Assembly (NCBI RefSeq): GCF_015351105.1 | Contig: NZ_JADKRR010000001.1 | Location: forward strand, 1,841,069 to 1,905,068 | Source of the DNA: Clavibacter sp. VKM Ac-2872 | GTDB taxonomy: Bacteria; Actinomycetota; Actinomycetes; Actinomycetales; Microbacteriaceae | Reading direction: 5' to 3' | DNA length: 64,000 nucleotides | In this document: one piece after another, positions 6,479 through 9,936 of the stretch | How the letters are laid out: every line of letters starts with the position of its first letter | Numbering within the stretch: position 1 is the stretch's first letter | Made by a program: the position numbers and the translations under genes | The notes under the pieces: model-generated | What the model was told of the DNA's origin: nothing | What the model saw: the letters and a program-made list of their open reading frames with translations, nothing else | Database searches by the model: none

Positions 6479-7486
6479 GTGCCGACACTCCCCCGCTCCG
6501 CCCGCCTGCGCCGATCGCTCGGCGTCCCCGCCCTCGTGGCGGCGGCCCTCGCGACGCTCACCGGCTGCGGCCTGCAGCCCGCGACGGCCTACGTCCCCGA
6601 CGTCGCCCCCGGCTCCATCCAGCCCCTCGACCTGCCGGCCGGCGCGCACCTCACCATCACGTCCAAGAACTTCACCGAGCAGCTGATCCTCGGCAAGATC
6701 GCCGTGATCGCGGCGAAGGCCGCCGGGTTCGACGTGACCGACCAGACGAACGTGCCCGGCAGCGTGCCGGCGCGCGAGCTCATGACGAGCCACGGCGCCG
6801 ACATGACGTGGGAGTACACCGGCACCGCGTGGCTCAGCTACCTGGGCGAGGCGAAGGGCATCCCCGACCAGCGCGCCCAGTACGAGGCCGTGCGCGACGC
6901 CGACGCGGCCAACGGGCTCACCTGGCTGACCCCCGCGCCGCTCAACAACACGTACGCGCTCGCGATCCGCAGCGAGGAGGCCGACAAGCTCGGCATCACG
7001 AAGCTCTCGCAGATCAAGGACCTGCCGGTGGACCAGCGCACCTTCTGCGTGGAGGCGGAGTTCAACTCCCGCTCCGACGGGCTGTCGCCGCTGCTGGAGA
7101 CGTACGGGATCCCGCGCGGATCCGCCGACGGCGTGCCCGAGGGCAACGTGTCGATCTTCGACACGGGCGCGGTCTACACGGCCACGGATCGCGGCTCGTG
7201 CGAGTTCGGCGAGGTGTTCACGACCGACGGACGCATCGACAAGCTCGGCCTCACGATCCTCCAGGACGACCTCGGCTTCTTCCCGGCCTACAACGTCGCG
7301 CCCGTGCTCGACTCGGCGACGCTGGCGGAGTACCCGGGGCTCCAGGACGTCTTCGACCGGATCTCCCCCGTCATCACCGACGACGCCCTGCGCGAGATGA
7401 ACCTCCGCGTCGACGACCAGGGCGAGGAGCCCGCGGACGTCGCCTACGAGTTCATGGTCGACCACGGGTTCGTCACCGCGCCCTGA
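6479..7486 (+). CDS. opuCC: Glycine betaine/choline ABC transporter, substrate-binding lipoprotein
   Basis: 335 residues. A basic N-terminus and hydrophobic stretch end in a lipobox LTGC, so the protein is probably lipid-anchored outside the membrane. The body is an OpuAC/ProX-type binding protein, with the recognisable SKNFTEQ start and the MTWEYTGTAW segment typical of the choline/betaine-binding fold. The GTG at 6479 is 2 nt after the permease stop. It is the last gene of the operon and is convergent with the HIT gene, whose stop overlaps it by 14 bp. No terminator hairpin is obvious in that overlap. Confidence 0.92.
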   Translation: MPTLPRSARLRRSLGVPALVAAALATLTGCGLQPATAYVPDVAPGSIQPLDLPAGAHLTITSKNFTEQLILGKIAVIAAKAAGFDVTDQTNVPGSVPARELMTSHGADMTWEYTGTAWLSYLGEAKGIPDQRAQYEAVRDADAANGLTWLTPAPLNNTYALAIRSEEADKLGITKLSQIKDLPVDQRTFCVEAEFNSRSDGLSPLLETYGIPRGSADGVPEGNVSIFDTGAVYTATDRGSCEFGEVFTTDGRIDKLGLTILQDDLGFFPAYNVAPVLDSATLAEYPGLQDVFDRISPVITDDALREMNLRVDDQGEEPADVAYEFMVDHGFVTAP

Positions 7487-7967
7487 CCTCGACCGCCTCG
7501 TGCCGGGCGAGGTGCAGGAGCTCGCTCCGGATCCGCGCGCGCAGCTCGTCATGCGCGTGCCCGAGCGCGGTGGCGGGGTCCCGCCACCGCTCGGGCGCGT
7601 GCAGCCACACCGGACGCGCGACGAGCTCCGGCGGCTCCCAGGCGTAGCGGGGCCAGACGTGGGCGTGGACGAACGCGTCGGCGTTGCCCAGCACCTCGAG
7701 GTTCACGCGGCGGAAGCCCGGCACGAGGTCACGGCAGGCGCGCTCGACGGCGGTGGCGAGGAGGTCGGCGTCCGCGAGGAATCGCACGCGCTCGATCCGC
7801 GGCATCTCCGCGAGCGACGTCGCCGCCGGGTCCGTGCCCAGCAGCACGCAGTAGCCGGGGAGGAACTGCACGTCGCCGATGACGGCGTACCCGGCCCCCA
7901 GCTCGGCGAGGACGGTGGGGTTCTCGCCCCTCCTGGCTGATCCGATCCTGTCCTCGCGCCAGTCCAC
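7473..7967 (-). CDS. HIT-family hydrolase (diadenosine tetraphosphate hydrolase-like)
   Basis: 164 residues from a GTG at 7967. It contains a HAHVWP motif at about residues 100-105, a variant of the HxHxHxx motif of histidine-triad nucleotide hydrolases in which the third His is Trp. A family role in cleaving dinucleoside polyphosphates or AMP conjugates is plausible but unproven. The frame stays open upstream into the 47-bp tandem array, giving a possible 207-residue form starting at 8096. I prefer 7967 because a -10 box (7975-7980) ends 7 nt before it and the upstream residues are repeat translation. The 3' end overlaps the convergent binding-protein gene by 14 bp. Confidence 0.75.
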   Translation of the reverse strand: MDWREDRIGSARRGENPTVLAELGAGYAVIGDVQFLPGYCVLLGTDPAATSLAEMPRIERVRFLADADLLATAVERACRDLVPGFRRVNLEVLGNADAFVHAHVWPRYAWEPPELVARPVWLHAPERWRDPATALGHAHDELRARIRSELLHLARHEAVEVRAR

Positions 7968-7974
7968 GCGCGAC

Positions 7975-7980
7975 ACGGTA
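7975..7980 (-). promoter_or_regulatory. -10 box of the HIT gene
   Basis: Minus-strand TACCGT ends 7 nt before the GTG at 7967, predicting a leaderless transcript. The -35 region would fall in the first copy of the 47-bp array. Confidence 0.5.
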
Positions 7981-7989
7981 GCCGCGCTG

Positions 7990-8154
7990 GCTGCGCATCC
8001 ACCTGCGGAGCTGCCCCGCTCCACCCGGGCGCCCTGGCTGCGCATCCACCTGCGGAGCTGCCCCGCTCCACCCGGGCGCCCTGGCTGCGCATCCACCTGC
8101 GGAGCTGCCCCGCTCCACCCGGGCGCGCTAGCTGCGCATCCACCTGCGGAGCTG
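7990..8154. repeat. 47-bp tandem array, 3.5 copies (minisatellite)
   Basis: Units start at 7990, 8037, 8084 and 8131, exactly 47 bp apart. The first two are identical, the third differs at two bases near its end (8127 and 8130), and the fourth is the 24-bp partial that forms the 3' end of the helicase gene. The helicase stop TAG (8128-8130) is one of the two variant positions. Each unit holds a small inverted repeat GGAGC/GCTCC. Minus-strand reading is open in all three frames because 47 is not a multiple of 3. Confidence 0.95.
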
Positions 8155-9936
8155 GTCGATGCGCTGCTGCAGCTGCGTGACGCTGCACTGGCCGACCGCG
8201 GGACCGCCGCACACGCGCCGGAGCTCCGCGTGGACGAGCCCGTGCGGCTCGCCGTGGAGCTTGGCGCGCATGCCGACGAGGCTGTTGAGGAGCTGCCGCT
8301 GCTCCTTGAGCGTGCGGTACAGCGGGATGTCGTCGGGGTCCTTGGGTGCGCCGCTCTCGGCCTGCTTCCGCTCCCGCTCGCTCGCGTGCTTCGACTGCCG
8401 GTGCTGCCGCTGGGCGAGGAGCTCGCGCACCTGCTCGGGCTCGAGGATCCCCGGGAGCCCGATGAACTCCTCCTCCTCGAGGCTGCCGACGTCGGCCATC
8501 TGCCCGAACTCGGCGCCGTCGAAGAGCACCTTGTCGAAGGTGGCCTCGGAGCCCATCGCCTCGAACGAGAACTCGCTGAGCAGGGAGTCGGACCCCTTCT
8601 CGCTGCGGTTCGCCTCGCCCATCATGGCGTCCTCGGGGTTGTAGAGGTCGCCCTCCTTCGAGGAGTCGCGGTCGAGGGCGTGGTCGCGCTGGCGCTCGAG
8701 CTCGTTGGCGAGCACGAGGAGGTTCGGGACACTCGGCAGGAAGATCGACGCCGTCTCGCCGCGGCGCCTGGCCCGCACGAAGCGGCCGATGGCCTGCGCG
8801 AAGAACAGCGGCGTCGACGCGCTCGTGGCGTACACGCCGACCGCGAGCCGCGGGACGTCGACGCCCTCGGACACCATGCGCACCGCGACCATCCACCGCA
8901 TCGTCCCGGCGGAGAAGCGGTCGATGTTGGCGCTCGCCTCGACGTCGTCGGAGAGCACCAGGGTGACGGGCTGTCCGCTGATCCGCTGCAGGATCGCGGC
9001 GTATGCGCGCGCGGTCGTGTGGTCGGTCGCGATGACGAGCCCGCCGGCGTCGGGGATGGACTGCCGCACCTCGCTGAGGCGCCGGTCGGCCGCGGCGAGC
9101 ACCTGCGGGATCCACTCGCCGTCGGGTGCGAGCGCCGTGCGCCACGCCTGCGAGGTGATGTCCTTCGTGTTGCCCTCGGCGAGCTGGGCCTCCATCTCGT
9201 CGCCCATCTTGTTGCGCCAGCGCATGCTGCCGGCGTAGGCGAGGAAGATGACGGGCCGCACGACGCCGTCGGCGAGCGCGCGCCCGTACCCGTAGTCGTA
9301 GTCGGTCTGCGAGAGGCGGACGCCGCGGTGGTCGCGGAGGTAGCTCACGAACGGGATGGGCGAGGTATCGGAGCGGAACGGGGTGCCCGTGAGCGAGAGG
9401 CGGCGGGTGGCGCGCTCGAAGGCCTCGCGGATCGCGTCGCCCCAGCTGAGCGCGTCGCCGCCGTGGTGGACCTCGTCGAGGATCACGAGGGTGCGGCTCG
9501 ACTCGGTCATGGTCTTGTGCAGGTAGGGGTTCGCGGCGACCTGCGCGTAGGTCACGGCGGCCCCGTGGTAGTGCCGGCCGAGCGCGCCGGACGCGTTGGT
9601 GTACATGGGGTCGAGGCGGACGCCCGCGCGCGCGGCCGCGTCGGCCCACTGCTTCTTGAGGTGCTCGGTGGGCGCGACGACCGTGACCTTGTCGATGGTC
9701 TTCCGGTGCAGCAGCTCGGAGGCCAGCCGGAGCGCGAACGTGGTCTTGCCGGCGCCCGGCGTCGCGTTGGCGAGGAAGTCCCGCGGCTCCTTCTCGAAGT
9801 ACGCGGTGAGGGCCTCCTCCTGCCAGGCTCGCAGCTTGCTGACGGTGCCCCAGGCGGCGCGCTCCGGGAAGGCCGGCGAGAGGTGCTCGGCCGCGGCGGA
9901 TCCGACGTGCGGTGGAGGGGTCGGCATGGTGCTCAC
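8128..9936 (-). CDS. DEAD/DEAH-box superfamily 2 helicase
   Basis: 602 residues. Motif I is TPGAGKT (about 59-65), motif II is DEVH in VILDEVHHGG, and motif III-like LTGTPFRSD follows. The C-terminal RecA lobe has a QAIGRFVRARR segment matching motif VI. This is the architecture of UvrB/RecG-like SF2 helicases found singly in many actinobacteria; the substrate is unknown. The GTG at 9936 is 8 nt from a -10 box; an in-frame ATG at 9927 is the alternative. The last eight residues (QLRRWMRS) come from the partial fourth copy of the 47-bp array, so the C-terminus has been the source or the target of the duplication. Confidence 0.88.
   Translation of the reverse strand: MSTMPTPPPHVGSAAAEHLSPAFPERAAWGTVSKLRAWQEEALTAYFEKEPRDFLANATPGAGKTTFALRLASELLHRKTIDKVTVVAPTEHLKKQWADAAARAGVRLDPMYTNASGALGRHYHGAAVTYAQVAANPYLHKTMTESSRTLVILDEVHHGGDALSWGDAIREAFERATRRLSLTGTPFRSDTSPIPFVSYLRDHRGVRLSQTDYDYGYGRALADGVVRPVIFLAYAGSMRWRNKMGDEMEAQLAEGNTKDITSQAWRTALAPDGEWIPQVLAAADRRLSEVRQSIPDAGGLVIATDHTTARAYAAILQRISGQPVTLVLSDDVEASANIDRFSAGTMRWMVAVRMVSEGVDVPRLAVGVYATSASTPLFFAQAIGRFVRARRRGETASIFLPSVPNLLVLANELERQRDHALDRDSSKEGDLYNPEDAMMGEANRSEKGSDSLLSEFSFEAMGSEATFDKVLFDGAEFGQMADVGSLEEEEFIGLPGILEPEQVRELLAQRQHRQSKHASERERKQAESGAPKDPDDIPLYRTLKEQRQLLNSLVGMRAKLHGEPHGLVHAELRRVCGGPAVGQCSVTQLQQRIDQLRRWMRS

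Follow-up and report, generated by a model that had tools for sequence, protein, structure and literature searches.

The helicase gene end and its tandem array

In the window, i.e., the whole 64-kb stretch of Clavibacter DNA analysed here, a tandem array lies at the 3' end of a gene encoding a DEAD/ResIII-type helicase, with a HIT-like gene and a convergent transporter gene beyond it. The features are as follows (window coordinates):

6479..7486, + strand: OpuAC-type substrate-binding protein gene, convergent (PF04069, 9.6e-56)
7473..7967, - strand: HIT-like gene coding for 164 aa, counted from a GTG that lines up with ATG-GACTGG in relatives (comparison with relatives; weak PDB match)
7983..8154, no strand assigned: tandem array, period 47, 3.7 copies, the Clav-VNTR16 locus (TRF and core matches)
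7990..8013, - strand: core copy 4, the last one ahead of the HIT-gene flank (core match)
8037..8060, - strand: core copy 3 (core match)
8084..8107, - strand: core copy 2 (core match)
8108..8127, - strand: spacer between the stop and the next core (unit comparison)
8128..8130, - strand: helicase stop codon TAG (sequence)
8131..8154, - strand: seed core, helicase codons QLRRWMRS (sequence, translation)
8128..9936, - strand: DEAD/ResIII-type helicase gene, source of the core (PF04851, 9.6e-17; PF00270, 8.8e-9)

An initial annotation of this DNA had described 47-bp units set exactly 47 bp apart after the helicase stop, and this was confirmed: TRF reports the array at 7983-8154 with 97% matches, and the copies of a 24-bp core start at 7990, 8037, 8084 and 8131, at a spacing of exactly 47 bp. 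The window contains these four core matches, versus none in 100 shuffles. The unit originates, as had also been claimed, from the 3' end of the helicase gene, the gene-proximal core (hereafter the seed, at 8131-8154) being made of the final eight codons, QLRRWMRS on the minus strand, immediately followed by the stop. Equally borne out is the two-base difference that separates the stop-bearing unit from the two adjoining complete units, TAGC versus CAGG on the coding strand, by which TAG is read as CAG. No second array of like unit length and identity is present in the TRF list for the 64-kb window.

The HIT-like protein (window 7473-7967; L018) has a weak match in the PDB, to the HIT protein 2oik (E 0.017), and Pfam and NCBIfam searches gave no match. 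The hexamer TACCGT at 7975..7980 on the minus strand, 7 bp ahead of the HIT GTG, is presumably a -10-like element; the promoter scan of the window did not call it, and TACGGT is found at the equivalent position in four other genomes (G003, G008, G009 and G011).

A published typing locus and its distribution

The array is an already published VNTR locus, seen here in another Clavibacter genome. Clav-VNTR16, or Cmm-V16, is entered in the MLVA scheme of Zaluga et al. (2013; PMC3691591) for Clavibacter michiganensis subsp. michiganensis as a 47-bp repeat present in 2-6.5 repeats, with five alleles among 56 strains of this subspecies; a glycine/betaine ABC transporter and a helicase are given as its genes. 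The sequences of its two primers occur unaltered in the window, one on either side of the array:

7439..7458, + strand: Clav-VNTR16 primer site, 0 mismatches (published primer matched to the window)
8276..8294, - strand: Clav-VNTR16 primer site, 0 mismatches (published primer matched to the window)

The window thus shares with Clav-VNTR16, as described in the passages of that paper used here, the 47-bp unit, both primer sites and the ABC transporter and helicase genes on either side. It differs from the locus described there by a HIT-like gene between the array and the transporter gene, and by three units in which CAG stands where the stop would be. Those same passages of PMC3691591 do not mention that the unit stems from the end of the helicase gene. 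Since both primers match exactly, the length variation between strains that had been anticipated for this array is documented by the 2-6.5 repeats of the 56 strains, which belong to C. michiganensis subsp. michiganensis and not to the window's own species.

Comparison of the locus across Clavibacter, which the initial annotation had proposed, showed that copy number also differs between species. With a 501-bp region as query, the helicase locus was found in 17 of 18 genomes; the remaining one, G004, was left out, having short weak matches and no usable helicase locus, with a single 3-mismatch core match at another place. When up to 5 mismatches are allowed, the 17 genomes contain 4, 4, 5, 3, 4, 5, 3, 4, 3, 3, 1, 3, 1, 1, 1, 1 and 1 cores, hence at least two in 11 genomes and a single one in the other six. 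That the array would be an assembly artefact is unlikely, judging from these sequences, since 10 of the other 16 Clavibacter genomes likewise have at least two cores there. The core is confined to this locus: in none of the 17 genomes was one found away from it at up to 3 mismatches.

Outside the genus, the last 27 bases of the helicase gene were not found repeated (at least 20 of 27 matching) within 400 bp downstream in any of the 77 non-Clavibacter genes among the best 80 of 577 relatives, taken from named genomes (the other three being from Clavibacter). The array is thus a Clavibacter feature in the sample examined, probably ancestral there and lost or reduced in some species. Parsimony requires five changes for the array and five for the HIT gene, and these numbers of gains and losses are not firm because the helicase tree of the 17 genomes has poor resolution, with stars on 2 of its 14 inner branches. 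Three Streptomyces orthologues of the helicase (L075, L093 and L111) have unrelated arrays of their own touching the stop, with units of 31, 14 and 20 bp.

The DNA beyond the helicase end varies as well. The next gene is HIT-like in five of the 17 genomes, the convergent OpuAC gene in ten, a DnaJ-domain gene in one (G007) and an IS481-type element in one (G012). The HIT-like neighbour is intact in G000, G008, G009 and G011, and its reading frame is broken in G003. In G012 (L019), the IS481-type transposase gene (PF13011) is found just past the helicase stop; sequence matching the HIT-side flank is located some 310 kb from there, on the opposite strand (L025), as if an insertion and a rearrangement had split the locus. 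In G013 (L014), which has a single core, the helicase stop is followed by ACCGGGGCAGCTGCCCCGGT, a 20-bp perfect palindrome whose beginning resembles the end of the spacer plus the start of a further unit.

Probable turnover of units within arrays

Units of one array resemble each other in the part that varies between species. Spacer identity is 0.89 within arrays (29 pairs) and 0.69 between arrays of different genomes (406 pairs), a gap that none of 5000 label shuffles equalled, and the nearest spacer belongs to the same array for 25 of 30 units. Spacers that are alike within an array and different between species point to concerted evolution. Core identity is 0.98 within arrays and 0.97 between them.

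The link between each array and its own gene is visible at core position 10, where an Arg codon begins. Among arrays whose seed has CGG, this position is C in five of seven non-seed units and G in the other two; in arrays with an AGG seed, it is A in 20 of 23 non-seed units, G in three and C in none. The G, which would give a Gly codon, is absent from all 17 seeds. Apart from this G, non-seed units match the synonymous state of their seed, and they never show the base of the other seed type. Each unit thus stems from the helicase gene of its own genome and is itself exempt from the constraint on the coding sequence.

Taken together, these data argue for a mainly neutral minisatellite, with a probability that we put at roughly 80%: a tandem duplication across the stop codon would have been tolerated and followed by slippage or unequal recombination. 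In a Clavibacter ancestor of most species, about 47 bp, comprising the last eight helicase codons, the stop and some 20 bp beyond, would have been duplicated in tandem, probably in one event rather than several. Such a duplication could be tolerated since the first copy leaves the gene its normal end. Units would later have been gained and lost through slipped-strand mispairing or unequal recombination, a turnover that would keep the units of one array alike, let the spacer drift between species and vary copy number among strains. Because selection on the protein would keep the helicase copy as it is, this copy could serve time and again as an invariant master for the cores of new units.

What speaks most strongly against plain neutrality is the lower variability of the core compared with the spacer. 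Within six arrays, the complete non-seed units show 4 variable columns of 144 in the core versus 14 of 144 in the spacer (Fisher p 0.026); once the last units are included, the core is more variable, with 21 of 264 columns. Equal variation of the two parts would be expected under plain unselected turnover, so that the core may either be overwritten by re-copying from the seed or be itself under weak constraint. In addition, the final bases of the spacer, GGG or GGGG ahead of the core, are similar across species, which a coding seed does not account for. The third positions of the seed are not unusually conserved, 16% of 8-codon windows being equally low.

Arrays over the ends of other genes

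Other loci of the MLVA scheme share this architecture. Both primers were found in G005 for V2, V5, V9 and V13, and V16, read from L007, likewise lies over a gene end; V15, for which no primer was found, V22, with a single primer in a G000 stretch, and V26, also with a single primer, were left out. Like the window array, three of these four readable loci open with the final codons of a gene and its stop, each with a unit unrelated to that of the window: V5, a 46-bp unit at a MerR gene (L114:9917-10173); V2, a 45-bp unit at an oxidoreductase gene (L116:5709-5930); and V9, a 20-bp unit at a gene ending in KRTQGR (L115:9911-9951). CGA takes the place of the gene's TGA in three of the four later V2 units, as CAG replaces TAG in the window. 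V13, by contrast, is intergenic, with a 17-bp array between its primers in G005 (published unit 35 bp).

A survey of 2,063,307 bases (the window and 100 further stretches, with 1870 genes from our own gene finder) indicates that gene 3' ends are moderately enriched in arrays. Among 185 arrays of at least 85% match, 131 are coding, 31 intergenic, 19 over a 3' end, one over a 5' end and three over both, whereas random placement of the 54 non-coding arrays gives 31.2, 9.1, 9.8 and 4.0 for the latter four classes (intergenic, 3' end, 5' end and both, respectively). Five rows had been chosen beforehand (this locus twice, V2, V5 and V9); without them the 3' count is 14 versus 8.2 expected, a value reached in 3 of 100 random sets, although orthologues of other loci may also recur among the rows. 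The corresponding counts are 16 versus 10.7 at 80% match (10 of 100 sets) and 7 versus 3.6 at 90% match (3 of 100 sets). When 30 bp of play are allowed at gene starts, the deficit at 5' ends is gone and, with the five rows again excluded, 12 arrays lie over a 3' end versus 8.3 expected (17 of 100 sets).

Tolerance would suffice to produce such a 3' excess, as the gene remains whole when the duplicated segment spans its stop, and has its signals disturbed when that segment spans its start. Gene ends could also be subject to a mutational bias. More tentatively, stop codons in Clavibacter, and perhaps in high-GC actinobacteria generally, might be favoured birthplaces of minisatellites, through mutational causes (e.g., termination-linked breaks) or tolerance, with the protein-constrained seed then acting as a master that re-imposes its sequence on a neutral array; at present this wider proposal seems to us rather doubtful. 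Within the literature covered at title level, from which subscription journals were mostly absent, no report of a 3'-end bias of bacterial minisatellites was recognised, and a single paper was found to name Clav-VNTR16.

Some further arrays of the survey deserve mention. Short ones (16-20 bp) run across stop codons at L131:10918-10959, L155:3280-3345, L137:6200-6260 and L192:4252-4292, and a 51-bp, 3.3-copy array of 98% match lies between two divergent genes in G005, off any gene end (L176:2225-2391). Non-coding arrays with units of at least 25 bp, at least three copies and 90% match (five rows from four loci) all have units of 45-51 bp.

In Mycobacterium, MIRU-VNTR loci are intergenic minisatellites of some 50-100 bp that are used for typing, some of them touching stop codons. 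The Clavibacter array resembles them in these respects, i.e., as a typing minisatellite at a stop codon. MIRUs are one sequence family dispersed genome-wide and, as with REP-type repeats, occupy many genomic sites, unlike the window core with its single locus in all 17 genomes.

Alternative readings of the core

The lower variability of the core could also reflect a functional site, i.e., a transcription terminator, an RNA-processing hairpin or a binding site that overlaps the helicase end and whose copies are under selection. The core, AGCTcCGCA-GGTGGA-TGCGcAGCT, is a near-palindrome, and in 10 of 17 genomes the helicase gene runs straight towards the convergent OpuAC gene, which would fit such a site. 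Core-spacer-core stretches taken on the antisense strand of the helicase gene have negative folding z values in 25 of 27 cases (mean about -1.1, lowest -2.4), which amounts to at most a slight effect on stability relative to shuffles, the 27 stretches being related sequences with two near-palindromes each. On the helicase strand, however, the mean over the same 27 stretches is about -0.3, and the core alone gives -0.7 and -1.5 on the two strands for its AGG form and +0.8 and -0.4 for its CGG form. The scan found neither terminator-like nor promoter-like sites in 7400-8400, the 26 spacers fold like their shuffles (mean z 0.06), and the best Rfam match is far from its cut-off (E 0.57, 19.6 of 44 bits), so that terminator scan, spacer folding and Rfam all leave a structured RNA, a hairpin or an intrinsic terminator without support. 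Changes in spacer stems that seemed compensating by eye were likewise discarded after the shuffle test on the spacers. Together with the ordinary third positions of the seed and the six genomes that do with a single core, this makes a selected site unlikely.

A site-specific recombination (attachment) site at the 3' end of the gene, with the array units as insertion scars, appears very improbable. Such a site would fit the position of the core at a gene end, its 9-bp inverted arms around 6 bp and the genome-dependent flank past the array (HIT, OpuAC, DnaJ-domain gene or IS481-type element). A second core was found neither beyond the HIT gene in the window nor elsewhere in the 17 genomes, and the like build of three of the four other readable MLVA loci, whose units are unrelated, argues for duplication rather than for one recombinase.

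The initial annotation had further proposed that loss of the stop would extend the helicase through the array and that the HIT frame is open back into it. The first idea finds no support, the helicase C-terminus being QLRRWMRS or QLRKWMRS, with TAG or TGA intact, in all 17 genomes at any copy number. In the other genomes, TAG or TGA is kept after the core in 23 of 27 non-seed units, CAG being seen in the three units of the window genome only. The HIT frame is indeed open into the array, as DNA of 76% GC (7473-8130) would readily give; the N-terminal extension drawn from it is not supported, since the HIT gene is intact in G008 and G009 with a single core and no array in front, so that an array-derived extension is not a conserved part of the protein. 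G003 also has a single core and no array, but there the HIT reading frame is broken. Effects of the array on either protein are thus without support as far as these comparisons go. A contingency device, in which stop loss and copy-number change would shift the helicase C-terminus or the HIT N-terminus between frames, is hardly credible in spite of a unit length that is not a multiple of 3, the CAG of three window units and the long open frames through the array, given the conserved stops, the array-less intact HIT genes and the 12 of 17 genomes in which the helicase has no adjoining HIT gene.

Significance of the locus

The mainly neutral minisatellite remains our preferred reading, and the array looks like ordinary, tolerated repeat growth and not like a device. 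The window finding is settled as a published strain-typing marker, the source of whose unit is now explained. What is new beyond this is modest: three of the four other readable published VNTRs straddle a stop, and arrays are moderately in excess at gene 3' ends in 2.06 Mb. Several Clavibacter typing loci have one architecture, in which the unit is copied from the last codons of a gene and its stop, and this shared architecture offers a simple setting in which to study the birth of minisatellites and the joint evolution of a selected seed and a mostly free array.
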